Positions 35,133 through 50,010 of a stretch of 64,000 nucleotides of DNA are shown one piece after another. A model generated the notes under the pieces. That model ran no database searches. It was not told the origin of the DNA and saw only the letters and a list, made by a program, of their open reading frames with translations. The translations under genes were made by a program, and so were the position numbers. Every line of letters starts with the position of its first letter. Position 1 is the stretch's first letter. The DNA is from Algoriphagus iocasae. GTDB taxonomy: Bacteria > Bacteroidota > Bacteroidia > Cytophagales > Cyclobacteriaceae. The stretch spans positions 992,001-1,056,000 of the forward strand of contig NZ_JACIJO010000002.1 in NCBI RefSeq assembly GCF_014206875.1, written 5' to 3'.

Positions 35133-35152
35133 AATTGGACGCATTAATCAAA

Positions 35153-35160: not shown

Positions 35161-35281
35161 CGGGAATTACTTACTTAGCAAAGTGAAGTGCCTTATTGAG
35201 GCATAAAAGATTAAGTGAATCTGGAATCTTTGGAATCCTATGGTTAGGATTTGTACTTTTATTAATTCAAATAGCTTTCAA

Positions 35282-35935
35282 ATGAAGAATTACTTGACGC
35301 TCCTTATTTTCTCTGTCTTGGTTTTTTCCTGCGGGCCTCGCGAAAGAGTTTCCAAAGAAGTTTTTGATGAAGTAAACAAGACCATGGAAGTCAAAAGGGT
35401 GACTGATGCTGAGATTACTCAGGAAGCAATGATTTGGGGAGACTCTATTACTACTTTAGCACAAAAGAATTTGATTTCAAATCTTCAAAAAGCTATTGAA
35501 GAAGGAGGCTTAGTTTATGCGATCCAGTTTTGCAATGAAAATGCTTCTGAATTAACTGATGTTTTGGATCCTTCAGAGGGTGTAATAATAAAGCGTGTTT
35601 CAACCAAAAACAGAAATCCTTTAAATGTACCTGATGAAGATGAAGCACAGATATTAGATGCATATGCTTATAATTCTGAACAAGGATTGGAAAGTGAACC
35701 AAATATTCAGAAAATAGAAAATGGTGAGGTATTATTATATACCAAAGCCATTATTTTCCCTGGGGGTTTGTGCCAAAATTGCCATGGAGACCCAGATTCT
35801 GAATTATCTCCAGATGTTCTAAATGAAATCAAGAATCGTTACCCTCAGGACCAAGCTTTTGGTTTTAAAACTGGCGATTTAAGAGGTATGTGGTCGGTCA
35901 AAATGCCTAAAAAAAGTATCGTAAATAGGCTATAA
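35282..35935 (+). CDS. DUF3365 (Tll0287-like) heme-binding lipoprotein
   Basis: 217 residues from the ATG at 35282, which starts a lipoprotein signal ending in FSCGP. The body matches DUF3365: AIQFCNENA near residue 83, KRVSTKNRNPLN near 107, and the c-type heme motif CQNCHG (about 163-168). It is probably a periplasmic cytochrome with a signal-sensing-like fold; redox partner unknown. The longer frame from 35240 adds residues that do not fit a signal peptide. It stands alone. Confidence 0.82.
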   Translation: MKNYLTLLIFSVLVFSCGPRERVSKEVFDEVNKTMEVKRVTDAEITQEAMIWGDSITTLAQKNLISNLQKAIEEGGLVYAIQFCNENASELTDVLDPSEGVIIKRVSTKNRNPLNVPDEDEAQILDAYAYNSEQGLESEPNIQKIENGEVLLYTKAIIFPGGLCQNCHGDPDSELSPDVLNEIKNRYPQDQAFGFKTGDLRGMWSVKMPKKSIVNRL

Positions 35936-36015
35936 TCCAATAGAAAATTGGAGAATTGTTGAAGACTTTAATTCAATCTACTGAATTATTGATTTTTCAA
36001 TTTTTTTTAACTTTT

Positions 36016-36032
36016 GTTAACGTATCGTTAAC
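36016..36032. promoter_or_regulatory. Perfect palindrome GTTAACG-TAT-CGTTAAC, candidate operator
   Basis: Seven-base arms with a 3-bp spacer, about 230 bp upstream of susC, directly after a TAACTTTTG that is near the -7 consensus. The position fits a repressor site over a transcription start. The regulator is unknown. Confidence 0.45.
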
Positions 36033-36128
36033 GAATAATAACTTCATTTTCGAATTAAAAAACGAAGGGTTTAATCTTGTGTTGAAATAATGCATTTTCG
36101 CTTGATTAAATTATATTTTATTGCAAGA

Positions 36129-36261
36129 ACACGGTTATGCAATCGATTGAATAGGGCAAAATACAGTCAGTATTCAAAAATATTCAGTGAGAATTTGCCT
36201 AAATTAATATTCAATTTCACCTATTAATATTAGTTAATGCAACCCAAACCAATAACCGTGT
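36129..36261 (+). promoter_or_regulatory. Long-range inverted repeat in susC leader
   Basis: ACACGGTTAT (36129-36138) is the exact reverse complement of ATAACCGTGT (36252-36261), which ends at the base before the susC ATG. If both are on the mRNA, a 10-bp helix would mask the ribosome-binding region. Confidence 0.4.
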
Positions 36262-39200
36262 ATGAAAAACTCTACTCGATTTAAGCTATTTGGCTTAACA
36301 TTTTTAATGTTTCTGGGCCTCATGGGCTCAGTTTTGGCTCAGACCCGGGAGGTGTCTGGGGTCGTGATATCAGGGGAAGATAATTTGCCCCTTCCAGGTG
36401 TTTCCGTATTAGTGAAGGGTACCACTACTGGTACTGTAACTGATGTTGACGGAAAATTCAATGTAAATGTGAGTGGTTCTGATGCCACGTTGGTACTATC
36501 CTTTATTGGGTTCACCACTTTGGAGGTGCCAGTTGGGGATCGGTCGACTTTTGACCTTACTTTATTACCTGACACCAAATCTTTGGAAGAGGTAGTAGTA
36601 GTAGGTTATGGTGAGCAAAAGAAAGAAACCATTACCGGTTCGGTAGCTACTGTAAAAGGAAAGGAATTGACTCAATCTCCAGCCATGAACTTATCCAACT
36701 CAATTGCTGGTCGTATGGCCGGTGTGGTTGCAGTGAACAGATCCGGTGAACCAGGTTATGATGGATCCGGGATCCGAATCAGAGGTAGTAATACTCTTGG
36801 GAATAATGATGCATTGGTCGTAATCGACGGTATTCCAGCTAGAGCTGGTGGACTTCAGCGTTTGAATCCGAATGACATTGAGAGTATTTCTGTATTGAAA
36901 GATGCATCTGCTGCGATCTATGGTTCTAGAGCGGCAAATGGCGTTATCTTGGTAACAACAAAAAGAGGTTCGACTGGTGCTCCTGAATTGACTTTTCAGG
37001 CTAACCAAGGTTGGGCTCAACCGACTGTCGTACCTAAGTTGGCGAATGCTGCACAATACGCTGAGATGTTAAATGATCTGGATATTTATGGGCTTCCTAC
37101 TTCAGAATGGGCTGCTGCAAACCAGGCTTATCAGCAAAATGGTGAGTATATCAGACCAAATGGTCAAGTAAGATCTGCTCCTTACACACCGGAAGAATTG
37201 GAATTGTATAAAAATGGGTCAGACCCTTGGCATTATCCGAATACTGACTGGTATGGGGAAACTTTAAAAACTTGGTCTCCTCAGAGCAGATACAATCTAC
37301 AATTGGTTGGAGGTAGTGAAAACGTAAAGTATTTGACTTCCTTAGGTTACCAGAATCAAGATGCATATTATAAGAATGCGGCGACTGGATATAAGCAGTA
37401 CGACTTTAGAATCAACTTGGATGCAAATGTTAATAAATATGTGAAAGTGGGCTTAGGTATTTTGGCAAGAGAAGAATTTAGATTCTTCCCTACCAGAGGA
37501 GCTGGAGCAATCTTCCGTATGCAGATGAGAGGTAAGCCAAATCAACCGGCATTTTGGCCAAATGGTAAGCCGGGACCAGATATTGAGAATGGTGAAAACC
37601 CTGTTGTGATTACCACAAATGCTACTGGATACGATCGTGATAAACAGGATTATATTCAGACGACTGGTAATTTAGAAATCAAGATTCCTGGAGTTGAAGG
37701 GTTGAAATTTACCGGAACTGCTGCAATCGATAAATTTATCCGTTATAGAAAATTATGGCAAACCCCTTGGACATTATACGAGCTAGGGAATGGTTTTGAA
37801 GCTGATGGCGTAACTCCTACTTTAGTTGGAACTCAAAGAGGACCTGCTGAACCTAGATTGAATGAATATACAGAACAGCGTCTGAATATCCTCTTGGGTG
37901 GGGTTTTCAATTATGATAAAACATTTGGTGAAGATCATACTTTGAATGTAGTAGCAGGTGTGAACAGAGAAACTGTAGAAGGAAATGACTTCAATGCATA
38001 CAGAAGATTCTTTATTTCGCCTGCAATTGATCAATTGTTTGCAGGGGGTGACTTACAGAAAGATAACGGAGGAGGAGCATTTAACAGAGCTCGTTTGAAC
38101 TACTTTGGTAGAGTTGCCTATAACTATAAAGAAAAATATCTGGCAGAATTTCTTTGGAGATATGACGGTTCTTACATCTTCCCTGAAGATACAAGATTCG
38201 GTTTCTTCCCTGGAATTATGTTAGGTTGGGTTGCTTCAGAAGAAGGATTCTGGAAAAATTCAGGTCTCGGACAAACATTTGATTTCTTTAAAATAAGAGG
38301 TTCTTGGGGTCAGTTAGGTAATGATCAGATTTATTATGATAATACTTTCCAAGAGTACCAGTTCTTATCTACCTATGGCTTTGATTCTTATATCATTGGT
38401 GGTGCACAAACTAAGACATTATATGAGACTAGGGTGCCTAATAGAGCCATTACTTGGGAGATTGCAAATAACTCCAATCTAGGTTTTGAGGGTCAATTCC
38501 TTCAAGGAAAGATTTTCTTCGAATTTGATTTATTCTATAACAAGAGAACCAATATCCTATGGAGAAGAAATGCTTCTGTTCCTGAAACTTCTGGTCTTAA
38601 TCTGCCTGCAGAAAACATTGGTGAAGTTGAAAACAAAGGTTTTGATTTAAACTTGGGATATAGAGGAGGAAAAGGTGAATTCCAATATTCTATCAGCGCA
38701 AATGGTGGATATGCAAAAAATAAGATCTTGTTCTGGGATGAAGCTCCAGGAGCACCTGATTGGCAAAGATCAACAGGAAGCCCAATGAATACAGGTTTAG
38801 TTTACCAATATGATGGAGTTTTCCCTGATCAGCAATCAATTGATGCAGAGACTATAGATTACTCAGCAATTACCAATAACCTTCGTCCAGGCGACATGAA
38901 GTATAAGGATTATAATGGTGATGGTAAAATCACTCCAGACGATCGTGTAAGGATGGATGCTAATAATATTCCTACTTTCCAAGGTGGATTAAATATTTCT
39001 GCTAACTGGAAAGGGTTTGATTTGGCAATCTTATTCCAAGGTGCAATGGGAGCAAGACAATACGTAGTTACTGAATCAGGAAACATTGGTAATTATTTAT
39101 TGGATGTTTATGAAAACAGATGGACAATTGATAATCCAAGTACCACAGACCCAAGAATTGCTAACAGAAATGATCAGTATTATTCCAATAATAATACCTA

Positions 39201-39432
39201 TTGGTTCAGAAAGACTGATTATTTGAGATTGAAGAACTTGGAGATTGGTTACAACATTCCTGCTACTCTGACTGAAAAAATCGGAGTAAGAAATGCAAGG
39301 ATTTATGTAAATGGTTTAAACTTAATCACTTGGGATAAGTTAAAAGTCTTTGATCCTGAAACTGATAGTTCAAGTGGACAGTATTATCCTCAGGCTAGGG
39401 TAATCAACACAGGTATTTCTGTTTCATTCTAA
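36262..39432 (+). CDS. SusC/RagA-family TonB-linked outer-membrane protein
   Basis: 1056 residues. Signal peptide (about 1-26), then a carboxypeptidase-regulatory-like domain (about 30-105, GVVISGEDNLPLPGVSV), the TonB-dependent plug starting at VVVVGYGEQKK (about 112) with the conserved VIDGIP and IYGSRAANGVILVTTKRG, and a 22-strand barrel to the aromatic C-terminus (GISVSF). It should import a nutrient across the outer membrane with the SusD-like partner encoded 12 nt downstream. The ligand is not evident; no N-terminal signalling (STN) domain is present, so it probably does not signal to an anti-sigma factor. Confidence 0.96.
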   Translation: MKNSTRFKLFGLTFLMFLGLMGSVLAQTREVSGVVISGEDNLPLPGVSVLVKGTTTGTVTDVDGKFNVNVSGSDATLVLSFIGFTTLEVPVGDRSTFDLTLLPDTKSLEEVVVVGYGEQKKETITGSVATVKGKELTQSPAMNLSNSIAGRMAGVVAVNRSGEPGYDGSGIRIRGSNTLGNNDALVVIDGIPARAGGLQRLNPNDIESISVLKDASAAIYGSRAANGVILVTTKRGSTGAPELTFQANQGWAQPTVVPKLANAAQYAEMLNDLDIYGLPTSEWAAANQAYQQNGEYIRPNGQVRSAPYTPEELELYKNGSDPWHYPNTDWYGETLKTWSPQSRYNLQLVGGSENVKYLTSLGYQNQDAYYKNAATGYKQYDFRINLDANVNKYVKVGLGILAREEFRFFPTRGAGAIFRMQMRGKPNQPAFWPNGKPGPDIENGENPVVITTNATGYDRDKQDYIQTTGNLEIKIPGVEGLKFTGTAAIDKFIRYRKLWQTPWTLYELGNGFEADGVTPTLVGTQRGPAEPRLNEYTEQRLNILLGGVFNYDKTFGEDHTLNVVAGVNRETVEGNDFNAYRRFFISPAIDQLFAGGDLQKDNGGGAFNRARLNYFGRVAYNYKEKYLAEFLWRYDGSYIFPEDTRFGFFPGIMLGWVASEEGFWKNSGLGQTFDFFKIRGSWGQLGNDQIYYDNTFQEYQFLSTYGFDSYIIGGAQTKTLYETRVPNRAITWEIANNSNLGFEGQFLQGKIFFEFDLFYNKRTNILWRRNASVPETSGLNLPAENIGEVENKGFDLNLGYRGGKGEFQYSISANGGYAKNKILFWDEAPGAPDWQRSTGSPMNTGLVYQYDGVFPDQQSIDAETIDYSAITNNLRPGDMKYKDYNGDGKITPDDRVRMDANNIPTFQGGLNISANWKGFDLAILFQGAMGARQYVVTESGNIGNYLLDVYENRWTIDNPSTTDPRIANRNDQYYSNNNTYWFRKTDYLRLKNLEIGYNIPATLTEKIGVRNARIYVNGLNLITWDKLKVFDPETDSSSGQYYPQARVINTGISVSF

Positions 39433-39444
39433 AAACTTGATAAC

Positions 39445-41313
39445 ATGAAAAATAAATTAAAATATTTAATTATAGCAGTAACGACATCAATGACGATGTT
39501 AAGCTGTAATGGTGATTTCCTAAATACAGAGCCACAAACAGAAATATCGGAGTCTGCTGTATGGACTGATCCAGCTTTAGCTGAGGCTTTTGTGACAGGT
39601 ATCTATCAAGGCTTAGGACAAGGTGGATTCAATGAAGAGATGCTTGCATCAATGACAGATGAGGCGATTTTCACTCACCCAGGAAGAGGTATTACCACTG
39701 TAACTGAGGCAAGGATTAATCCAGCTGATGTAGGATGGAATAATGCCGGCAATAGAACTTGGAACTGGCAAAGACTTTATAGCTACATCCGAAGAACCAA
39801 TTTGGCAATTGCAGAATTGTCTGAACCTCAATTTGAAAATGATGGTGGTATTGTGGATAGATTATTAGGTGAAGCCAAATTTATGAGAGCCTATTACTAT
39901 CAAGATTTAGCAAGATATTTTGGCGGGGTTCCTTTGGTCGATAGACCTTACGAATTAGGTGAAGAGTCTTATGACATCGTGAGAGCTACATATAAGGAAA
40001 CTATAGATTTCATTCTTGCTGATCTGGAAGATGCGCAAACTTTGTTAGCGGGTAAAAATATGGCTTCAGGTAGAACAAATGAATTAGCAGTACTTGCGTT
40101 GAAAGCTAGAGTTTTATTATATGCTGCAAGTGATCTTCATGATGCTCCTACAGCACAAGGAAATTCCTCTGTTTTAGCAGGATATGGTAATATTGACTTA
40201 ATAGCTTATACGGATGGAAATAGACAAGAAAGATGGCAGAAAGCTCAGGCAGCTGCAAAAGCTGTTCTTGATAAAGCTTCTGGAAACCTTTATGGTCTTT
40301 CTGAGCCAGTTTCACATGAAGAAGGTATCCAAAACTATATGAATAACTCACTTTCCAGAAATGGGGGTGAAAAAGAATTAATTTTTGCGAGATACTTTAT
40401 CAATGCCAAGCAAGAAAATGGTGGCCGCCAGGGACTTTATAATGGACCTAATGGCTATAACAACTGGGCGGGTAATAGCCCTGTTCAACTGCTAGTAGAT
40501 GATTATGAAATGATGGATGGAACAGAGTTTAACTGGAACAATCCTGAGCATGCAGCTAATCCTTATGAAAACCGAGATGCTCGTTTCTATGCTTCAATTT
40601 TATATGATGGAGCTCAGTGGAAGCCAAGATCTACTGCAAATGCACCAAAAGATCCATTAGGACAAATTCAAACGGGTACATATGAAGTGACTGATGCTTC
40701 TGGAGCAATAGAAACTCACTTCGGTTTGGATACTAGAAACAGTTCTATTGAGGATTGGAATGGTAGCTACACAGGCTATTACATTCGAAAATTTATAGAT
40801 CCTAATCCAGCAATTGTAGATCAAAATACATGGCAAGAGGTTCCATGGCCTATCTTGAGATACACTGAAGCAGTTCTAAATTATGTAGAAGCTTCTTTGG
40901 AACTAGGACAAGAAGATGAGGCGAGAGCTTGGTTAAACCAAATCCGTTTCAGAGTTGGGCAGCCAGCAATTACTGCTACTGGAGATGAGTTAGTAGAGAT
41001 TTATAGAAATGAAAGAAGAGTTGAAATGGCTTATGAGGAACAAAGGTTCCACGATGTAAGACGTTGGATGATTGCCGAGGAAACTTTTGGCCGTCAAGCA
41101 AATGTCATTAGTATCACTGGCACTTTGAAACCAGGTAAGTCCCTCTCGATTTACAGATATGATCCTGAAATATATGATTATAATTATGTTGTTCAACCTA
41201 TAGATCCAGGTAAAGAAAATAGATTATGGCTGGACAAAATGTATTTCTTCCCAATTCATAGAGATGAAATAAACAGGAACTCAAGTCTCGTTCAGAACCC
41301 TGGATTCGAATAA
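39445..41313 (+). CDS. SusD/RagB-family nutrient-binding lipoprotein
   Basis: 622 residues. Lipobox TMLSC (Cys about 21) anchors it to the outer surface, where it caps the SusC barrel. The TPR-rich SusD core (about 25-330) and the C-terminal RagB region with RNERRVEMAYEEQRFHDVRRW (about 510-530) are typical, although this conserved run is longer than most motifs. It follows susC by 12 nt and ends at a terminator, so the pair can be transcribed without the downstream genes. Confidence 0.95.
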   Translation: MKNKLKYLIIAVTTSMTMLSCNGDFLNTEPQTEISESAVWTDPALAEAFVTGIYQGLGQGGFNEEMLASMTDEAIFTHPGRGITTVTEARINPADVGWNNAGNRTWNWQRLYSYIRRTNLAIAELSEPQFENDGGIVDRLLGEAKFMRAYYYQDLARYFGGVPLVDRPYELGEESYDIVRATYKETIDFILADLEDAQTLLAGKNMASGRTNELAVLALKARVLLYAASDLHDAPTAQGNSSVLAGYGNIDLIAYTDGNRQERWQKAQAAAKAVLDKASGNLYGLSEPVSHEEGIQNYMNNSLSRNGGEKELIFARYFINAKQENGGRQGLYNGPNGYNNWAGNSPVQLLVDDYEMMDGTEFNWNNPEHAANPYENRDARFYASILYDGAQWKPRSTANAPKDPLGQIQTGTYEVTDASGAIETHFGLDTRNSSIEDWNGSYTGYYIRKFIDPNPAIVDQNTWQEVPWPILRYTEAVLNYVEASLELGQEDEARAWLNQIRFRVGQPAITATGDELVEIYRNERRVEMAYEEQRFHDVRRWMIAEETFGRQANVISITGTLKPGKSLSIYRYDPEIYDYNYVVQPIDPGKENRLWLDKMYFFPIHRDEINRNSSLVQNPGFE

Positions 41314-41326
41314 GTTTCTTAAATTT

Positions 41327-41358
41327 CCAAGCCACCCAAATCGGGTGGCTTGGTCTTT
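41327..41358 (+). terminator. Hairpin terminator or attenuator after susD
   Basis: Perfect 11-bp stem CCAAGCCACCC / GGGTGGCTTGG with a 5-nt loop, followed by TCTTT. The short T-run suggests partial read-through into the next genes. Confidence 0.75.
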
Positions 41359-41457
41359 ATTTCTGCTTTGAAATCGAGCACGTCTTAAACGACGAAAAAG
41401 GTATGATTAAGAGCCATGCGAGATTCCATGTGGCCTCTGAATTACAGATATACTCAC

Positions 41458-44400
41458 ATGAAAAAGTTAGTACCCAGCTTAACCCTCATTACCCTATCAA
41501 TTTTTTTTTCATGTTCTAATGACCCTCAGGTTGAAAAAATAGAACAACCAAAAGAACCTTCTCTTTTTAAACTAATAGACCCGAAGGATTCAGGAGTTAA
41601 TTTTCAAAACACACTGAATGAATCTCTCAATCTAAATGTCCTGATGTATGAATACCTCTACAATGGTGGTGGTGTTGCTGTTGGAGATTTGAATGGAGAT
41701 GGATTGGAGGATATTTATTTTTCTGCCAACGTTTCGGGAAATAAACTTTTCCTCAATAAAGGCGACTTAAAATTTCAGGACATCACAGAACCATCCGGAG
41801 CCCTAGGTAGACCAGGGCCTTGGAAAACAGGAGTCACCATGGTGGATATTAATGGTGATAATCTTCTGGATATTTATTTATGTTACTCAGGAAATTTAAT
41901 TCCTGAAAAACGAAAAAATGAACTCTTTGTTAATCAGGGAAACAACGATCAAGGCATCCCTACTTTCAAAGAAATGGCAGAAGAGTATGGCATTGCTTCA
42001 GGGGCACCAAGTACATCTGCGAGCTTTTTTGACTTTGATAAGGATGGTGATTTGGACCTCTTTTTATTGAATCACAATACCAAGTCTACCCAGATTTTAG
42101 ACTTGGCTGTAACCAAATCAGCTCTTAAAGAAAAACACGAAGCTGGTCCACAGCTTTTCGAAAATAAGAATGGGAAATTTGTAGAAATCACTATCGAGGC
42201 TGGAATTTCCAGTTCCAGTTTGTCTTATGGATTGGGTTTAGCTATTTCTGATATTAACAGAGATGGTTGGCCGGATATCTACATCGGTAATGATTACACC
42301 ATTCCTGATTACCTATACATCAACCAAAAAGACGGGACTTTCAAAGATCAGATTCTGGAAATGATGGATCACGTTTCCAACTTTTCAATGGGAAATGATA
42401 TCGCAGATATCAACAATGATGGTTTGGTTGATATCATGACTTTGGATATGATGCCGGAAGGAAACGAAAGACAAAAATTACTTTTGGCGCCCGATAATTA
42501 CGAAGTCTTTGACTTGAATGTGCGAAAAGGATTTCACCATCAATACATGAGAAATATGCTCCATCTTAACAATGGAGATGGGACTTTTTATGAGATAGGG
42601 CAGGTAGCAGGAATATCCAATACCGATTGGAGTTGGGCAAGTTTATTTGCTGACTTTGATAACGACGGATGGAAAGATCTTTTTGTAAGCAATGGATATT
42701 TGAGAGATTATAACAACATGGATTTTCTTAAATACATGGATAATTATGTGCAGACTTCCGGAGGGAAATTAAAAAGGGAAGATCTCTTGAATATGGTCAA
42801 GAACATGCCTTCCTCTAATTTGACCAATTACATCTATCAAAATAACAACAACCTAACTTTCAAGAATGTAACTGAAGCTTGGGGAATCAATCAACCAGCC
42901 AATAGTAATGGAGTGGCTTACTCAGATTTAGACAATGATGGGGATTTGGATTTGGTGGTAAACAACATCAACTCCAATGCTTTTCTATACCAAAATCAAA
43001 GCGTGGAGCAAGGCAAAGGGAATTACCTAAAAGTCAAACTTGTCGGAACAGGTCAAAATACTTTGGCACTTGGGTCATCAGTAAGATTGTTTTCGAATGG
43101 GGAAACACAGCTTTTGGAGCAAAATATTCATAGAGGTTTTCAGTCTTCAGTGACACCAATTTTACATTTTGGATTGGGACAAGTTTCAGGAATTGATTCC
43201 TTAATCATTAATTGGCCTAGCGGGAAGCAAACAAGAATGTTTGATATTCCATCTAATCAGGAAATTGAAGTTTTAGAATCTGAAGCTGGAAAAGGATCCG
43301 GATTCTCTGCTAATTCAAATCAGGTTTTATTTACCGCAAATCAGGAAATTTCTATCAAAGGAGAGAGAAAAATCAATGATTTTAAACGCCAGCCTCTTTT
43401 AACAAATGTGATTTCAGGTAATGGGAAGGCTTTGATTTCAGAAGATTTTAATGGTGATGGTAGGCCTGATATTTTTGTAGGAGCCGGACCAGGGCTTAGT
43501 GGAAGAGTCTATTTCCAGAACTCCTCAGGGAATCTAGTTTTTTCTGATTCTTCTGCTTTTTCTTTCGCGAATCAGTCTGAAGATGCAGTGGCTATTTCAT
43601 TGGATGCCAACGGAGATGGATTTATGGATATTTATGTCGGAAGTGGTGGGGTCTTTGATTTTGCAGAAGGAGATATTAGATTTTCTGATCACCTGTACCT
43701 AAATGATGCTAAAGGGAAATTTGCTTTGGCTCCAGATGCATTACCAAAAGAAAACTTTGCAACAGGGACAGTTTTATCTCTAGATGTAAACCAAGATGGA
43801 TTTGAAGACCTATTTGTAGGTGGAAGAGTTGTCCCCGGACAATATCCTTTATCGCCTGGAGCAAGAGTTTGGATAAATGACGGCAAAGGGAATTTTGTAG
43901 ATCAAACAGATCAAATCGCTCCAGATTTTAAGAATCTTGGAATGTTGACCGATTCGAAATCTGCTGATTTAAATCAAGATGGGGTAGACGAATTGGTTTT
44001 GGTGGGAGAAGCAATGCCAATCCAGGTTTTTGAGCTAAAGGATGGAAAATTTCAAGATGCCACTGGAAATTACTTCTCTCAATTGGAAGTAGGTTTCTGG
44101 AATCATATTGCTGTTGAGGACTACAATGGAGATGGTAAGCTGGACTTGTTTGCAGGAAACTTAGGGACGAATTCTCAGCTTCAGGTTAGCGATGAAAAAC
44201 CGGCTGAGCTGCTTTACAAAGACTTTGATGGAAATGGCTCTGTGGACGCTATTCTGAGCTCTTATATTGGATCAGAAAAATACCCTACAGTCAGCAGGGA
44301 TGAACTACTTGGTCAAGTGAATTTTCTAAAGAAGCGGTATTTGGATTTCAAATCCTTCGCTACTGTTAAAACAGATGATATTTTCACAGAAAAAGAGCGG

Positions 44401-44796
44401 GAAGGTGCTGAAATTATCTCCATTAATAGACTAAAATCTACCCTGTTTTTACAAAACGCATCCGGTAAGTTTGAAGAAAAAGTATTGCCAATCCAAGTTC
44501 AATTCTCTCCTGTATTCACGTCTGAATTCTTAGATGTCAATGGAGATGGAAATAAGGATTTAATTCTTGCTGGAAATATGAACCAGACAAAATTGAGATA
44601 TGGCAAGTATGATGCAAACCATGCGATGGTTTTCCTTGGAGATTCTAAAGGTGGATTTACCTACTTACCGAAATATTTGGCGGGACTTTCCGTTAAAGGG
44701 GATGTAAGAAATATTGTGCAAATCAATAATAATCTACTGTTTTTAGTCAAAGGGCAAGGTTTAAAATCGTTTGTTTTCCATTCGTCAAAAGATTAA
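41458..44796 (+). CDS. FG-GAP/VCBS repeat lipoprotein with ASPIC/UnbV domain (CRTAC1-like)
   Basis: 1112 residues. Lipobox FFSCS near residue 20. Two beta-propellers of FG-GAP repeats with Ca-binding DxNxDGxxD loops (for example DLNGDGLEDIY, DINGDNLLDIY, DFDNDGWKDLF) flank an ASPIC/UnbV domain (about 520-605; LGSSVRLFSNGE, HFGLGQ, INWPSGKQT). Such proteins are frequent next to SusC/SusD genes in Bacteroidota, and are thought to bind extracellular polymers, but no enzyme activity is proven. The ATG at 41458 is chosen for the signal peptide; an upstream start at 41416 is rejected. It begins a five-gene run with spacings of 3-57 nt. Confidence 0.88.
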   Translation: MKKLVPSLTLITLSIFFSCSNDPQVEKIEQPKEPSLFKLIDPKDSGVNFQNTLNESLNLNVLMYEYLYNGGGVAVGDLNGDGLEDIYFSANVSGNKLFLNKGDLKFQDITEPSGALGRPGPWKTGVTMVDINGDNLLDIYLCYSGNLIPEKRKNELFVNQGNNDQGIPTFKEMAEEYGIASGAPSTSASFFDFDKDGDLDLFLLNHNTKSTQILDLAVTKSALKEKHEAGPQLFENKNGKFVEITIEAGISSSSLSYGLGLAISDINRDGWPDIYIGNDYTIPDYLYINQKDGTFKDQILEMMDHVSNFSMGNDIADINNDGLVDIMTLDMMPEGNERQKLLLAPDNYEVFDLNVRKGFHHQYMRNMLHLNNGDGTFYEIGQVAGISNTDWSWASLFADFDNDGWKDLFVSNGYLRDYNNMDFLKYMDNYVQTSGGKLKREDLLNMVKNMPSSNLTNYIYQNNNNLTFKNVTEAWGINQPANSNGVAYSDLDNDGDLDLVVNNINSNAFLYQNQSVEQGKGNYLKVKLVGTGQNTLALGSSVRLFSNGETQLLEQNIHRGFQSSVTPILHFGLGQVSGIDSLIINWPSGKQTRMFDIPSNQEIEVLESEAGKGSGFSANSNQVLFTANQEISIKGERKINDFKRQPLLTNVISGNGKALISEDFNGDGRPDIFVGAGPGLSGRVYFQNSSGNLVFSDSSAFSFANQSEDAVAISLDANGDGFMDIYVGSGGVFDFAEGDIRFSDHLYLNDAKGKFALAPDALPKENFATGTVLSLDVNQDGFEDLFVGGRVVPGQYPLSPGARVWINDGKGNFVDQTDQIAPDFKNLGMLTDSKSADLNQDGVDELVLVGEAMPIQVFELKDGKFQDATGNYFSQLEVGFWNHIAVEDYNGDGKLDLFAGNLGTNSQLQVSDEKPAELLYKDFDGNGSVDAILSSYIGSEKYPTVSRDELLGQVNFLKKRYLDFKSFATVKTDDIFTEKEREGAEIISINRLKSTLFLQNASGKFEEKVLPIQVQFSPVFTSEFLDVNGDGNKDLILAGNMNQTKLRYGKYDANHAMVFLGDSKGGFTYLPKYLAGLSVKGDVRNIVQINNNLLFLVKGQGLKSFVFHSSKD

Positions 44797-44853
44797 AAAA
44801 TCACATTGTTTTAATACCTAATTTACTTCTTTAAAGTTTCGCTTACGATTACC

Positions 44854-45813
44854 ATGAAAAAACTAGTATTGCCAATAGCGCTAATTGGCGTTTTGGCATT
44901 TTATAGTCTTGAAAGACCCATTTTTGAATCCTATACGCAAAAGATCCCAGGTACGCCTGTCACTTTTGATATGACTCCTATTGAAGGAGGCACATTTAAA
45001 ATGGGTTCTTCGTCCAGTGCAAATGCTGATGAAAAACCAGTTCATGAAGTGAAAATCGATCCTTTTTGGATGGGGACTCATGAAGTTACTTGGGATGCAT
45101 TTGAATTGTTCCTTGATAAAAATTACGAATTGGCCATTTCAGAGGAGCCAATTGGAGAGATTGTCGATGGATTAACCCGGCCAAGTTTACCCTATCTAGA
45201 TATGACTTTTGGAATGGGAAAAGAACACAAGCCAGCAATAGGAATGACCCAGTATGGTGCCATTCAATACTGTTATTGGTTGTATTTAAAAACAGGCATA
45301 TTTTATAGACTTCCGACTGAGGCAGAATGGGAATATGCAGCAAGAGCTGGATCTGATTCAAAATACTTTTTCGGAGATGATTCTGAAGCGATTACTGAAT
45401 ATGCTTGGACAGCTGAAAACAGTGATGGAATGACCCAAATGGTCGGAAAAAAGAAACCGAATCCTTGGGGCTTGTATGATATTTATGGCAATGTATTGGA
45501 ATGGACCTCCGACCAATATGACCCTGAATTTTATAAGAATTCTCCGAAAGAAAACCCTATGAATCCATCAGATGAACTGTATCCGAGGATTGTGAGAGGG
45601 GGGAGTTTCAAGACTCCTGCAGAAGAAATCAGTTCTGCAAAAAGATTTGTAAATGATCCAAAATGGAAACAATTGGATCCTCAGATTCCAAAAAGTCAAT
45701 GGTGGTTTCCGGAAGCACCATTTATTGGATTGAGATTGGTGAGGCCTTTGAATCCTCCAAGTCCAGAAGAAATTAATGCTTATTATACCGCAGCACCTAT
45801 TGCGGACTATTAA
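44854..45813 (+). CDS. FGE/SUMF1-like domain protein lacking active-site cysteines
   Basis: 319 residues. An N-terminal hydrophobic segment (about 3-17) exports or anchors it. The rest is one formylglycine-generating-enzyme-like domain: GGTFKMGSS, HEVTWDAFELF, RLPTEAEWEYAARAG, NPWGLYDIYGNVLEWTSD and VRGGSF. The C-terminal region where true FGE carries its two copper-binding cysteines reads GGSFKTPAEEISSAK with no Cys; the only cysteine in the protein is in AIQYCYW. It is therefore unlikely to activate sulfatases, and none is nearby. A structural or binding role with the UnbV protein is a guess. Confidence 0.85.
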   Translation: MKKLVLPIALIGVLAFYSLERPIFESYTQKIPGTPVTFDMTPIEGGTFKMGSSSSANADEKPVHEVKIDPFWMGTHEVTWDAFELFLDKNYELAISEEPIGEIVDGLTRPSLPYLDMTFGMGKEHKPAIGMTQYGAIQYCYWLYLKTGIFYRLPTEAEWEYAARAGSDSKYFFGDDSEAITEYAWTAENSDGMTQMVGKKKPNPWGLYDIYGNVLEWTSDQYDPEFYKNSPKENPMNPSDELYPRIVRGGSFKTPAEEISSAKRFVNDPKWKQLDPQIPKSQWWFPEAPFIGLRLVRPLNPPSPEEINAYYTAAPIADY

Positions 45814-45832
45814 ACCCTGAAATGACAATATT

Positions 45833-47146
45833 ATGAAAAACACAAGAAGAGATTTTATCAAAACTTCGGCGCTGGCTACCGGTGGAGTGTTAGCAGCCAA
45901 TTCTTTCGTATTACCTGGAGCTTATGCAGCACCAGCGGAAACTCACTTGAAACTTGCTTTGATTGGCTGTGGGGGTCGAGGTACAGGAGCTGTTTTCCAG
46001 GCTATGGAAACAGGTCATCCAATCAAATTGGTGGCTATGGCAGATGCTTTTAGAGATAGATTGGATGGGAGTTTGAAACCTATCCTTGATAAATATGGTG
46101 CTGAAAAGGTAGACGTTCCAGAAGACAGAAAATTCGTAGGTTTTGATGCCTACAAACATGCAATTGCCGAGGCGGATGTAGTCATTTTAGCAACACCTCC
46201 GGGCTTCAGACCTGACCATTTTACTGAAGCTGTAAAGCAGGGTAAACAAATCTTTATGGAAAAGCCTGTAGCGACTGATGCAGTAGGTATCCGTAAAGTT
46301 TTGAAAGCAGCTGAAGAAGCAAAAGCAAAGAAATTAAACGTGGTGGTGGGTCTTCAGAGACATTATCAGGATAACTATAGAAAAACCATCGCAAAAATCC
46401 ATGCAGGAGAAATCGGTGATATCATCGGTGGACAAGTGTATTGGAATGACGGTGGAGTTTGGGTAAGACCTAGAAAACCAGAGCAAACTGAGATGGAATA
46501 TCAGATGAGAAACTGGTACTATTTCAATTGGCTGTGCGGAGATCATATCACTGAGCAGCACGTTCACAACATTGACGTGGCAAACTGGGTGAAAAAAGGA
46601 TATCCTGTTAAAGCTGAAGGAACTGGTGGTAGAATGGTAAGAACCGGCAAGGAATTCGGAGAAATTTTTGACCACCATACAGTTCAGTTTACTTATGAAG
46701 ATGGTACAGTGATTCACAGTGAATGCCGTCACTTCCCTGGTGCTGCAAATAGAGTAGATGAGACTTTCCAGGGAACCAAAGGAACTGCTTATTTGAGTGC
46801 TGGGAACCATGGAGTTTTGACTGATTACACTGGAAAGAAGTTATACGAGCATGATCGTGAAAATAACATTAACCCTTATCAACAGGAACATAATGAGCTT
46901 TGGGCAGCACTTGTAAATGGTGAGTATAAATTTGCTGATGCTGAAAATGGTGCGAGAAGTACCATGACGTCTATTTTGGGAAGATATGCTACATATTCCG
47001 GTAAGGTCATTACCATGGATGAAGCTATCAATTCAGACATCAATTTATTCCCAGATACTTTGGCTTGGGATGCTACTCCTAAACTGGTTCCTAATGCTGA
47101 TGGATTCTATCCTCATGCAGTTCCTGGTAAAACCAAAACTGTTTAA
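45833..47146 (+). CDS. Tat-exported Gfo/Idh/MocA-family oxidoreductase
   Basis: 437 residues. A twin-arginine signal (RRDFIK, residues 5-10, then a hydrophobic run to about 33) sends the folded, cofactor-loaded enzyme out of the cytoplasm. The NAD(P)-binding motif GCGGRG is at 45-50, the family's EKP at 143-145 (Lys144 catalytic) and GDHITEQHVHNID at 236-248 supplies the expected catalytic His residues. Exported members oxidise sugar hydroxyls, and in Bacteroidota some act in 3-keto-glycoside cleavage. It lies 19 nt after the FGE-like gene and 3 nt before the TIM-barrel gene. Confidence 0.92.
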   Translation: MKNTRRDFIKTSALATGGVLAANSFVLPGAYAAPAETHLKLALIGCGGRGTGAVFQAMETGHPIKLVAMADAFRDRLDGSLKPILDKYGAEKVDVPEDRKFVGFDAYKHAIAEADVVILATPPGFRPDHFTEAVKQGKQIFMEKPVATDAVGIRKVLKAAEEAKAKKLNVVVGLQRHYQDNYRKTIAKIHAGEIGDIIGGQVYWNDGGVWVRPRKPEQTEMEYQMRNWYYFNWLCGDHITEQHVHNIDVANWVKKGYPVKAEGTGGRMVRTGKEFGEIFDHHTVQFTYEDGTVIHSECRHFPGAANRVDETFQGTKGTAYLSAGNHGVLTDYTGKKLYEHDRENNINPYQQEHNELWAALVNGEYKFADAENGARSTMTSILGRYATYSGKVITMDEAINSDINLFPDTLAWDATPKLVPNADGFYPHAVPGKTKTV

Positions 47147-47149
47147 ACC

Positions 47150-48067
47150 ATGGAAAGAAGAAAGTTTTTAAGAAATCTAGGAATTAGCGGATCAGCTCTC
47201 ACCTTAGCGACGGGAGCTGTGATGCCTTCTTTTGCAAGGAATGAAGAATTTGCGGAGCCTACCTTCAAAATGGATTTTGCACCGCATTTCGGAATGTTCA
47301 GAAATTCGGCTCCTGATGGAATAGTGGATCAGCTAAATTTTATGGCAGATCAGGGTTTTCGTTCTTTGGAGGATAATGGAATGCTAGGAAGATCTGTGGA
47401 AGAACAGACTCTTATTGCAAAAACCATGGAATCTCTAGGGATGAGAATGGGAGTTTTTGTAGTAGATGGTGGAGATAACTGGAAAGTTTCTCTGACATCT
47501 GGAAAGCAAGAATTTATGGATCATTTTCTTGATACCTGCAGAAAGTCTGTGGAAGTTGCCAAGAGGGTAAATGCTACTTGGATGACTGTAGTGCCAGGGT
47601 ATTTTGAAAGAAACTTACCAATAGGCGTTCAGACGGGAAATGTGATCGAAGCTTATAAAAGAGCAGCGGAGATTTTTGAACCGCATGGATTGGTGATGGT
47701 GATGGAGCCTTTGAGTGATAACCCAGATTTGTTCTTAAGACATGCTGATCAATCTTATATGATTTGTAAGGCTGTGGATAGTCCTGCTTGTAAGATTCTT
47801 TATGACATCTATCACATGCAGCGAAATGAAGGGAATTTGATTGCCACCATGCAGAAAACCTGGGATGAGATCGCTTATATCCAAATTGGGGACAATCCTG
47901 GTAGAAAAGAACCAGGTACCGGTGAGATCAATTACCAAAATGTTTTCAAATTCATCCACGAAAAAGGGTTTAAAGGAATCTGTGGAATGGAACATGGAAA
48001 TGCTAATCCTGGCGTAGAAGGTGAAAAAGCTTTAATAGAAGCATATAGAAAAGTAGATATCTCTTAA
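47150..48067 (+). CDS. Tat-exported TIM-barrel protein, hydroxypyruvate-isomerase-like
   Basis: 305 residues. A Tat signal (RRKFLR, 3-8, then a hydrophobic stretch ending PSFA) is followed by an xylose-isomerase-like AP-endonuclease-2 barrel. The metal site of Hyi-type enzymes is recognisable: Glu186 (VMEPL), Asp219 (YDIYHMQ), Gln245 (IQIGDNPG) and Glu281 (GMEHG). The Hyi hallmark EPGTGEINY is at 254-262. Being exported, it is not a cytoplasmic hydroxypyruvate isomerase; acting with the preceding dehydrogenase on an oxidised sugar is likely. It starts 3 nt after that gene and 8 nt before the YCF48 lipoprotein gene. Confidence 0.9.
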   Translation: MERRKFLRNLGISGSALTLATGAVMPSFARNEEFAEPTFKMDFAPHFGMFRNSAPDGIVDQLNFMADQGFRSLEDNGMLGRSVEEQTLIAKTMESLGMRMGVFVVDGGDNWKVSLTSGKQEFMDHFLDTCRKSVEVAKRVNATWMTVVPGYFERNLPIGVQTGNVIEAYKRAAEIFEPHGLVMVMEPLSDNPDLFLRHADQSYMICKAVDSPACKILYDIYHMQRNEGNLIATMQKTWDEIAYIQIGDNPGRKEPGTGEINYQNVFKFIHEKGFKGICGMEHGNANPGVEGEKALIEAYRKVDIS

Positions 48068-48075
48068 TTTCGCCT

Positions 48076-49107
48076 ATGCGAAAAGTAGTATGTGTTCTGG
48101 CTTTAGGAATTTTCTTTTCTTGTCAGACAAATGAAATAAAAGTCCCAGAAAACCCCTTGGGTTGGGAGATTTTTGAAACACCAGTGAAAGCCTCCTTAAG
48201 GGGGCTTTCTCCGGTTACAAGTGAAATAGCCTGGGCCTCTGGAAGTGGAGGGACTTGGTTACGGACAATTGATGGAGGAAAAACATGGGACCACGGTGTC
48301 ATCGCAGGTTTGGATACTGTCGATTTCAGATCTATCCATGCATTTGATGCGATGAATGCGGTGGCTGTTTCAGCTGGGCAACCTGCTGTGATTTTTAAAA
48401 CAGAAGATGGTGGCCAAACTTGGGATCTAAAACACAAGGAAGTTGAAGAAGCCTTTTTGGATGGGATTTCATTTGCAGATCCTAATCGTGGTTATGTCGT
48501 TGGTGATCCGATCGATGGGAAATGGATGATTTTGCAAACTGCAAACCAAGGAGAATCCTGGTACCCGGTTTTAAATTTGCCGGAGGCTAAAGAAGGAGAA
48601 GCAGGTTTTGCTGCAAGTGCAACATCGCTTATTTCCGAAGGGTCCAACATTTGGTTAGGAAGTGGTGGCACGGAAGCAAATTTGCATTATTCACCCGATT
48701 TTGGAGAAAGCTGGAAAAAGTGGAAGTCTCCGATTATGCAAGGAGAACCTTCAAAGGGAGTTTTTTCTGTGACAAAATTAGGTGGAGAGGAAGTTTATTT
48801 AGTGGGAGGAGATTACATTAAAATGGATGACACCATTTCTGTGGCAGCTTCATTTTCCACACTACATGAAAAATGGATTGCTCCGGTGTCCTCACCAAAA
48901 GGCTACCGTTCTGGAGTGGTTTATTTCCCAAGATTTCATTGGTTAGTAGCCGTGGGACCGACTGGTTCTGACTTCTCAAATGACGGTGGTCAGGTTTGGG
49001 AGAATTTTTCCAATGAAGGTTTTCATGCAGTGAAATTGGGACATGCAGAGGCTGCTATTTGGGCTTCAGGTTCCAATGGAAGAATCGCAAGGTTGAAAGT
49101 TGAATAA
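48076..49107 (+). CDS. YCF48/BNR-repeat lipoprotein
   Basis: 343 residues. Lipoprotein signal ending FFSCQ (Cys about 16). Six or so WxTxDGGxxW repeats (TIDGGKTWDHG, TEDGGQTWDLK, ANQGESWYPV, SPDFGESWKKW, SNDGGQVWENF) build one beta-propeller, as in the sialidase-like or YCF48 fold. No sialidase catalytic set is evident. It is the last gene of the susC-associated run and probably binds the same substrate outside the cell; the larger YCF48 protein at 32322-35132 is an unrelated T9SS cargo. Confidence 0.85.
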   Translation: MRKVVCVLALGIFFSCQTNEIKVPENPLGWEIFETPVKASLRGLSPVTSEIAWASGSGGTWLRTIDGGKTWDHGVIAGLDTVDFRSIHAFDAMNAVAVSAGQPAVIFKTEDGGQTWDLKHKEVEEAFLDGISFADPNRGYVVGDPIDGKWMILQTANQGESWYPVLNLPEAKEGEAGFAASATSLISEGSNIWLGSGGTEANLHYSPDFGESWKKWKSPIMQGEPSKGVFSVTKLGGEEVYLVGGDYIKMDDTISVAASFSTLHEKWIAPVSSPKGYRSGVVYFPRFHWLVAVGPTGSDFSNDGGQVWENFSNEGFHAVKLGHAEAAIWASGSNGRIARLKVE

Positions 49108-49246
49108 ATCTTTTGGATTTTTAGAAGCTTCCAGATTATAAAATTTTGATAGTTTTCAAAATTTCGAAGTTAGGATTAGCACTTCTGTATTATCTTTAAG
49201 GAAAACTTATTTGAAATTTTTCCTAAATACCCTTTAATTTTAATCC

Positions 49247-49981
49247 ATGTTTGAAATAATTCCATCTATTTGGTTAATCAATGGCAAATGCGTTAGGCTC
49301 AAGAGAGGTGATTTTGCTACGGAAGAAGCAATTTCCAATAATCCCCTTGAGATAGCCCAGGCATTTGAATCTATTGGGATTAAGCGACTGCATTTGGTGG
49401 ATTTGGATGGAGCCAGAAGAGGTGAGCCAAAGAATTATCATATTCTTGAAGCAATCGCGGGGTATACAAATTTAAGTGTTGATTTTACAGGTGGTATTTC
49501 GACTGACGGCGATGTGATCAAATGTTTTGAATTTGGAGCTAAAACTGTAACCATAGCCTCTGCAGCAGCAAACCACCCTGAGCGTTTCAGTCAGTTTATT
49601 CTTTCTTATGGGAGAGAAAAAATCAACCTAGCGGCTGATACCAATCCGGAAGATCATAAAATCAAAATTAAAGGCTGGTTAAAGAAGACCGAAATAGACC
49701 TTTTCGATCATATCGAGTTTTTCTATGATAGAGGTTTGAAATATCTAAAATGTTCAGATGTCACTAGGGACGGGGTGATGCAAGGACCAAATTTTGATCT
49801 ATATGCAGAACTCGTTGAGAAATTTCCAAATCTTCATATCGCAGCAAGTGGTGGAGTCAGAAATATCGATGATTTCAAAAAATTAAGAGATCTCGGACTT
49901 GGTGCAGCTGTTTTTGGAAGAGCTTTTTATGAAGGGATGTTAGAGCTTAAGGATCTAGAAGAATTCATCTCAAAAGGATAA
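49247..49981 (+). CDS. HisA-like TIM-barrel isomerase with altered active site
   Basis: 244 residues resembling HisA (ProFAR isomerase of histidine synthesis). Conserved parts are HLVDLDGARRG near residue 47, FTGGIS near 78, the barrel Asp in LAADTN near 126, SDVTRDG near 170 and AASGGV near 203, so phosphate binding sites are kept. The first catalytic Asp, normally in the opening IPAID motif, is replaced: the sequence reads IIPSIWLING with Trp at residue 9. No other his gene is in the window. It may be a HisA paralogue with a changed reaction, or an enzyme with altered activity; HisA proper may be elsewhere in the genome. Its own terminator follows. Confidence 0.8.
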   Translation: MFEIIPSIWLINGKCVRLKRGDFATEEAISNNPLEIAQAFESIGIKRLHLVDLDGARRGEPKNYHILEAIAGYTNLSVDFTGGISTDGDVIKCFEFGAKTVTIASAAANHPERFSQFILSYGREKINLAADTNPEDHKIKIKGWLKKTEIDLFDHIEFFYDRGLKYLKCSDVTRDGVMQGPNFDLYAELVEKFPNLHIAASGGVRNIDDFKKLRDLGLGAAVFGRAFYEGMLELKDLEEFISKG

Positions 49982-50010
49982 AAAAAAAGAGGTTTTTAAA
50001 CCTCTTTTTT
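49982..50010. terminator. Bidirectional terminator after the HisA-like gene
   Basis: Stem AAAAGAGGTTT / AAACCTCTTTT with A and T runs on either side; it also suits the convergent gene ending at 50028. Confidence 0.85.

Follow-up and report, generated by a model that had tools for sequence, protein, structure and literature searches.

Three genes of a seven-gene locus at positions 36262-49107 of the window, the whole 64,000-nt stretch of an Algoriphagus genome that was analysed, form a core that is co-inherited across Bacteroidota. They encode an FGE-like protein, which shares the fold of the formylglycine-generating enzyme (FGE), a Gfo/Idh/MocA dehydrogenase (GFO), and a Hyi-like metal TIM barrel (TIM). 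The locus does not form a single functional unit; SusC, SusD and UnbV upstream of the core make up a separable add-on cassette. With a probability of roughly 45%, the core is a periplasmic module in which GFO oxidises a sugar, most likely at C3, and TIM isomerises or eliminates the product, with the FGE-like protein as an accessory and often with a flavin link.

The co-inherited core

Occurrence and linkage: The same 396 genomes of the class were searched for each protein, with E-values of up to 1e-100 for GFO, 1e-45 for the FGE-like protein, and 1e-60 for TIM, which occur in 33, 33, and 40 genomes, respectively. GFO and the FGE-like protein share 31 of the 35 genomes that have either (Jaccard 0.89), GFO and TIM share 32 of 41 (Jaccard 0.78), and all three are present in 30. 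At these thresholds, GFO is found without the FGE-like protein in G276 and G182, the latter having a shorter FGE-like open reading frame (ORF) near GFO. The FGE-like protein is found without GFO in G274 and G342, and GFO without TIM in G145. Eight genomes have TIM and no GFO, and among them G313 carries a GFO-like fragment at a contig end. Another Gfo protein served as control (c37, BT_2158-like with 473 bits against a cut-off of 750); it occurs in 63 of the 396 genomes, with Jaccard values of 0.48 with GFO, 0.45 with the FGE-like protein, and 0.58 with TIM. A preliminary description of this DNA had treated the FGE-like protein as a member without a known role in such a pathway, but it is the tightest partner of GFO (31 of 33 genomes). 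The co-inherited trio gives the FGE-like family a concrete partner, making its role testable.

GFO lies within 3 kb of the FGE-like gene in 26 of 31 genomes, and of TIM in 21 of 32. Four genomes (G250, G300, G334, and G339) have the complete trio at three separate places, which argues for a shared function and not mere clustering. A sample of 267 genomes from the phylum contained 39 with GFO, of which 21 belong to other classes. Eighteen of those 21 supplied 19 further loci and one more came from this class; the partner genes in these 20 loci were sought with tblastn. An FGE-like gene lies no more than 2.5 kb away on the same strand in 19 of the 20, and TIM is within 5 kb in 12. The FGE-like gene is absent in L230, and four matches are just 29-35% identical (L218, L219, L236, and L237).

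GFO: The dehydrogenase (45833-47146, + strand; PF01408/PF22725) has the features of the Gfo/Idh/MocA superfamily, namely a PF01408 score of 42.2 bits (cut-off 24), the EKP lysine, and an Asp/Glu-x3-His pair. Lys144 of the EKP motif and His245 are present in 52/52 sequences and Glu241 in 51/52, the last at the position of an Asp in inositol dehydrogenase. The alignment of these 52 sequences has 135 columns at least 95% identical, including an unusual block around YQMRNWYYFNWLCGDH. The motif RRxF, which points to export by the twin-arginine translocation (Tat) pathway, occurs near the N-terminus in 50/52 GFO and 104/117 TIM sequences, and in 0/14 HisA controls. The structure model of GFO has a pLDDT of 75.5. 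The 50 fold matches listed by VIA-align range from Z 32.5 to 28.8, and comprise levoglucosan 3-dehydrogenase, oxidoreductive sulfoquinovosidases, RgNanOx, DgpA, and glucose-fructose oxidoreductase, among others.

TIM: The barrel (47150-48067, + strand) belongs to the AP_endonuc_2/xylose-isomerase-like family (PF01261, 113.6 bits, cut-off 31.1), is 97% identical to its A. aestuarii homologue, and aligns with Hyi/YgbM structures. Its putative metal residues are E177 (112/117), D219 (117/117), Q245 (117/117), and E281 (116/117), which we take to be ligands from the Hyi alignment and from what is known of such barrels. Domain models and conserved residues thus support the pair of a dehydrogenase and a metal barrel that had been proposed, and the RRxF counts support the Tat signals proposed for both.

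The relatives of TIM indicate a sugar-redox setting. Eighty loci were named for TIM, the best 80 of 317 relatives; close relatives and GFO-less loci are over-represented among them. In 48 of the 80 (Maribacter, Arenibacter, Zobellia, and others) the TIM homologue has genes for a GMC oxidoreductase and a Gluconate_2-dh3 subunit nearby; 22 of the 80 have GFO. TIM thus pairs with two different oxidising systems. The GMC/Gluconate_2-dh3 pairs are presumably of the LacAB type. Two genomes (L093 and L098) have the single run FGE-GFO-ApbE-TIM-MFS-GMC-Gfo2-GDH3. In five loci, DUF1080 (3-keto-disaccharide hydrolase) shares a gene run with the FGE-like gene: it lies 5' of FGE together with YceI in L097, L111, and L132, 5' of FGE without YceI in L107, and 3' of GFO in L100. 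It was verified with Pfam in L097, L100, and L111, and assigned by clustering with them in L107 and L132. YceI is 3' of FGE in L131. DUF1080 domains are matched 14 times in the genome of the window, each time outside this cluster. The sugar-redox setting of the preliminary description is supported by the GMC/Gluconate_2-dh3 and DUF1080 neighbours. As a separate observation, GMC, Gluconate_2-dh3, TIM, and a second TIM-barrel gene (c4) are clustered in the 48 loci (L024-L070 and others), usually with a DinB-like gene (c5, assigned by eye) and an MFS symporter (c3).

FGE-like protein: The gene at 44854-45813 (+ strand; PF03781) encodes the FGE-sulfatase/PvdO fold, and PvdO is its best match both by fold (5hha) and by sequence. 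The structure model has a pLDDT of 72.7, with residues 97-130 and 273-290 poorly modelled. On the PvdO model (NF051459) the protein scores 85.5 bits, below the cut-off of 500. Residues D105, C140, D209, N213, E216, and W217 are invariant in 49/49 sequences, and the protein also has a DPQIPKS motif. The cysteine pair of the FGE active site, which presumably sits after the RGGSW-type motif, is absent: no Cys follows RGGSF, and the sole Cys conserved in 49/49 sequences is the distant C140. A role as sulfatase-maturing enzyme was rejected on this ground; judged by its residues, the FGE-like protein does not make formylglycine.

ApbE: A gene for ApbE (FAD:protein FMN transferase; PF02424 in 23/23 linked copies) is often found between GFO and TIM in relatives. 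In 22 of the 33 GFO genomes, no more than 4.5 kb separates it from a core gene, and in 18 it forms part of an uninterrupted run on one strand. Among the 20 further loci, 13 have ApbE within 5 kb, five of them on the same strand within 2.5 kb. It occurs in 0 of the 80 TIM loci, a sample with the bias to close relatives and GFO-less loci described above. The genome of the window has one distant ApbE (36%) elsewhere. The ApbE link raises the question of how periplasmic nicotinamide-dependent enzymes recycle their cofactor.

The optional cassette and the neighbouring genes

All seven ORFs are intact and on the (+) strand, and the intergenic gaps from SusC to YCF48 are 12, 144, 57, 19, 3, and 8 nt. 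The gap of 144 nt between SusD and UnbV is measured to the ATG at 41458, the start that gives a lipoprotein-type N-terminus. Domains were called with Pfam and NCBIfam profile models. The cassette consists of a SusC-family TonB-dependent transporter (36262-39432; TIGR04056, 906 bits, cut-off 368), a SusD-family surface lipoprotein (39445-41313; PF07980 with E 3.2e-56, PF14322), and an FG-GAP/ASPIC-UnbV lipoprotein (41458-44796; PF13517 and PF07593, UnbV_ASPIC). The core follows, and the last gene encodes a YCF48/BNR β-propeller protein (48076-49107; PF14870, PSII_BNR/YCF48). The ORF coordinates bear out the earlier claim of seven co-directional genes spaced 3-144 nt, and the profile models confirm the domain identities given with it (SusC, SusD, FG-GAP/UnbV, FGE-like, Gfo/Idh/MocA, Hyi-like barrel, and YCF48).

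A search of the genus found GFO in 68 of 72 Algoriphagus genomes, the four misses being 76-84% complete. From the 68 positive genomes, 48 loci were read, mostly from the more complete ones; some belong to the same assemblies as the named Algoriphagus loci L008-L020, so the two sets are not additive. The full gene order is kept in 12 of the 13 named loci, the other (L010) being cut by a contig end, and the predicted recurrence of the block in relatives is supported. The FGE-like gene, YCF48, and hisA are each present in 48/48 loci, GFO in 48/48 (broken in L189), and TIM in 47/48 (no ORF was recovered in L200). The GFO of L189 (genome G413) is split into two overlapping ORFs, either by a sequencing error or as a pseudogene. 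In contrast, 30 of the 48 loci have SusC, SusD, and UnbV together and 18 have none of the three; counting the window, the cassette is found in 31/49. The earlier reading of the seven genes as a single unit does not hold, since the cassette is missing in 18/49 Algoriphagus loci while FGE-GFO-TIM-YCF48 stays. The SusC/SusD pair that serves as criterion for a polysaccharide utilization locus is present here, yet it occurs in just 31 of the 49 loci. The optional cassette warns against deducing function from one operon.

In the cassette-less loci, -22 to 357 nt separate the upstream Tll0287-like gene from the FGE-like gene. Parsimony, applied to a tree of GFO, FGE-like, and TIM with five outgroups, gives about six changes of cassette state, with absence at the root. 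YHN15 (L021) has no SusC-SusD-UnbV cassette. Outside Algoriphagus, SusC-SusD is 5' of FGE in L102, SusD-UnbV is 5' of FGE in L220 (another class), and SusCD lies divergently beside FGE in L221. The genome of the window has seven UnbV genes. SusC-SusD-UnbV sets occur at three further places (L157, L159, and L160), and another UnbV gene (L156) stands without SusCD beside it. Because UnbV goes with SusCD at three other places of the genome, its presence here is uninformative about this particular pathway, and a role of UnbV as one of the pathway's enzymes was rejected. At L157:4539-19505 of this genome, three UnbV genes come after SusC-SusD, and a short lipoprotein-like gene separates the first of them from the second.

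A strong terminator-like hairpin is predicted between SusD and UnbV at 41327-41353 (+ strand), with an 11-bp stem, a T-rich tail, and z -7.0 against 200 shuffles. Its position 3' of SusD suggests that SusCD and the downstream genes may differ in expression level. Rfam gave zero matches across 35900-50000. The same gap holds a dispersed imperfect palindrome of about 60 bp at 41369-41428, composed of TGRAATCGAGCA, about 37 nt, and TGCGAGATTYCA. The arms TGRAATCGAGCA and TGCGAGATTYCA pair throughout save for a conserved tandem GA mismatch. The palindrome has four copies in the genome, against none for a reversed control pattern, is found also in L008 and L026, and has no Rfam match.

Neighbouring genes: A Tll0287-like protein with one haem-c motif (CXXCH) is encoded at 35240-35935 (+ strand; PF11845, E 1.7e-23) and serves as a boundary marker and putative member only. 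The gene is 5' of the locus in 47/48 Algoriphagus loci, the exception (L163) beginning inside SusC. YHN15 has it too, and in the other loci compared no such label occurs next to the core. As a fixed upstream neighbour in Algoriphagus and YHN15, the protein is a possible periplasmic electron carrier. Further 5', on the opposite strand, a large YCF48/PKD protein carrying a C-terminal signal for type IX secretion is encoded at 32322-35144; homologues are found at that place in 18/48 Algoriphagus loci, many of the others ending earlier, and in YHN15. At the other end, YCF48 follows TIM in Algoriphagus (48/48 loci) and YHN15, and no YCF48 label occurs in the loci of Cyclobacterium or Chitinophaga. 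The claim that YCF48 is a surface lipoprotein agrees with the lipobox-like motif of this protein, but does not extend to the whole genus, as the motif occurs in just 31/48 Algoriphagus relatives. The next gene after YCF48 is hisA (start 49247).

Proposed function and its alternatives

In the proposed mechanism, GFO would fold with NAD(P) in the cytoplasm and then be exported by Tat. It would oxidise a hydroxyl, most likely that of C3, of a saccharide, glycoside, or anhydrosugar. TIM, using the same export route, would handle the keto product through an enediolate, either by isomerisation or by elimination of the glycosidic oxygen. As the constant partner, the FGE-like protein may act in substrate presentation, in assembly, or in an oxidase step. 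The ApbE linked in many lineages would imply a flavin step, plausibly re-oxidation of the dehydrogenase, and the upstream SusC-SusD-UnbV cassette, in the Algoriphagus loci that have it, would supply outer-membrane capture. A bolder version, which is doubtful, is a phylum-wide periplasmic redox machine of four parts. Here a Gfo enzyme carrying NAD(P) would need an FGE-fold protein without FGE chemistry and an ApbE-dependent flavin carrier for repeated sugar oxidation, and would hand the keto sugar to a metal barrel for opening or cleavage. If true, such a machine would explain the turnover of an exported nicotinamide enzyme without cytosolic NAD.

Several findings weigh against the sugar-oxidising module. 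GFO remains far below every NCBIfam equivalog cut-off, including that of the BT_2159 model: it scores 50.2 bits on the BT_2158 glycoside 3-dehydrogenase (NF058561, cut-off 750) and 23.1 bits on levoglucosan dehydrogenase (NF052479, cut-off 650). TIM is nearest to the hydroxypyruvate isomerase Hyi (TIGR03234), again below the cut-off (120.1 bits against 353), and reaches no other equivalog cut-off. All GFO fold matches are tied, and the fold thus points to no substrate. The control c37 co-occurs above chance, in 31 of the 33 GFO genomes; part of the co-inheritance signal is thus a background of genomes rich in sugar-redox genes, and the co-occurrence p-values ignore phylogeny. The flavin link has its own difficulties. 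There is no ApbE in the Algoriphagus operon, and the linked copies vary widely (22 to 72% identity with the L094 copy), which suggests that ApbE may have been recruited more than once. A relaxed scan for flavinylation motifs gave matches in 0/52 GFO, 0/117 TIM, and 0/15 YCF48 sequences; of the 49 FGE-like sequences, three matched. For lack of a consistent motif, the idea that a core protein accepts the flavin from ApbE was rejected. Two FGE-like homologues (L077:7657-8622 and L078:7664-8635) have D-x-x-S-G-A-T, which we take to be the shape of an ApbE flavinylation site; the other 47/49 have Arg at the G position, and the motif, replacing this conserved residue, is taken as chance.

A cyclitol or polyol module is unlikely. 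In this reading, GFO would be an inositol-type dehydrogenase of the periplasm and TIM would isomerise or epimerise an inosose or ketose, with the glycosidic bond left uncut. The PDB sequences nearest to GFO are inositol dehydrogenases, its top NCBIfam score is that of the inositol 2-dehydrogenase IolG (TIGR04380, 68.4 bits), and TIM also scores on epimerases. However, all those scores are far under the cut-offs (355 for IolG), and the GMC/Gluconate_2-dh3 partners of the barrel, together with DUF1080 in five loci, suggest 3-keto glycosides instead. It is rather improbable that GFO alone is a redox-neutral NAD-dependent glycoside hydrolase, like the oxidoreductive sulfoquinovosidases or GH109, and that TIM merely processes the released sugar. 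This would account for the use of NAD outside the cytoplasm without an electron acceptor, and oxidoreductive sulfoquinovosidases and RgNanOx are among the closest listed folds, yet their Z-scores of 30.3 to 31.4 equal those of plain dehydrogenases. The absence of GH109 from the 50 listed matches carries no weight. Against this reading, the linkage of ApbE suggests a net electron flow. None of the seven genes matches a glycoside hydrolase, polysaccharide lyase, carbohydrate esterase, or sulfatase family in the Pfam and NCBIfam models, although GFO could be a Gfo-type glycoside hydrolase such as GH109. The earlier statement that the set has no glycoside hydrolase, lyase, or sulfatase thus stands for the classical families, while such an NAD-dependent glycosidase activity of GFO is possible.

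What speaks most against a food pathway is the place of GFO among the core genes of the genus. All 50 of the Algoriphagus genomes with a completeness of 90% or more and a contamination of 5% or less have it, a pattern that a housekeeping or envelope role would explain as well as a niche glycan would. The core would then modify or recycle a sugar of the cell's own envelope, a role with which the optional state of the uptake cassette also agrees. This is distinctly improbable all the same, as GFO is patchy in the class (33/396 genomes) and sugar catabolic genes are linked to the core in other lineages. The periplasmic sugar-oxidising module is the preferred reading for the comparison below.

Comparison with known systems

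Exported Gfo/Idh/MocA and FGE-like proteins are common in Bacteroidota, and to our knowledge most are without assigned function.

Levoglucosan use: The LgdA/LgdB1/LgdB2/LgdC system of Bacillus smithii resembles the core in having a Gfo-type 3-dehydrogenase followed by two barrels annotated as sugar phosphate isomerases, which carry out elimination and hydration (PMC7676230). The levoglucosan dehydrogenase structures rank 2 to 5 among the listed GFO folds, and are 14-15% identical in the structural alignment. The Lgd enzymes are cytoplasmic, and LgdB1 and LgdB2 presumably have the barrel fold. Unlike the present core, the Lgd pathway is closed by the Gfo reductase LgdC, and the part of the source available mentions no FGE-like protein, ApbE, or SusCD (PMC7676230).

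3-Keto-disaccharide and lactose pathways: Bacteroides thetaiotaomicron also has an exported Gfo glycoside 3-dehydrogenase, BT2158, described as periplasmic (PMC11300592). In contrast, GFO is far under the BT_2158 and BT_2159 cut-offs, and the BT_2158-like c37 is a separate family. The periplasmic pathway of B. thetaiotaomicron is taken here to be BT2156-BT2160. Periplasmic formation of 3-keto glycosides, as proposed for the core, is also described for LacABC lactose 3-dehydrogenase with a DUF1080 hydrolase (PMC9007349); a flavin GMC enzyme acts there, whereas GFO would be NAD-dependent.

Gfo/eliminase systems and a two-sugar enzyme: DgpA with DgpB/C, and AtOGE, resemble the core in Gfo oxidation (the DgpA fold matches at Z 29.9 to 31.2) and in a metal TIM barrel that eliminates the aglycone from 3-keto glycosides, as reported for AtOGE (PMC10628242). 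The partners of GFO are different from those of DgpA, and TIM is likened to these eliminases as a metal barrel. Glucose-fructose oxidoreductase of Zymomonas has the Gfo fold (Z 30.2). It is exported by Tat with bound NADP and is a self-recycling two-sugar enzyme; we know of no TIM, FGE-like, or ApbE partner for it.

FGE-like partner and ApbE: The FGE-like protein shares its fold with PvdO and FGE, and differs from FGE by the absent cysteine pair and from PvdO by the unreached cut-off. In an eLife survey of ApbE clusters, the terms Gfo, formylglycine, and sugar do not occur in the main text (PMC8238504). Among the open-licence papers listed by the searches made, none deals with this gene set or describes the FGE-like partner, the link to ApbE, or conservation across classes. 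Pathways that pair an exported Gfo enzyme with a barrel are already known; what appears to be new is the FGE-like partner, the link to ApbE, and the conservation of the core across classes.

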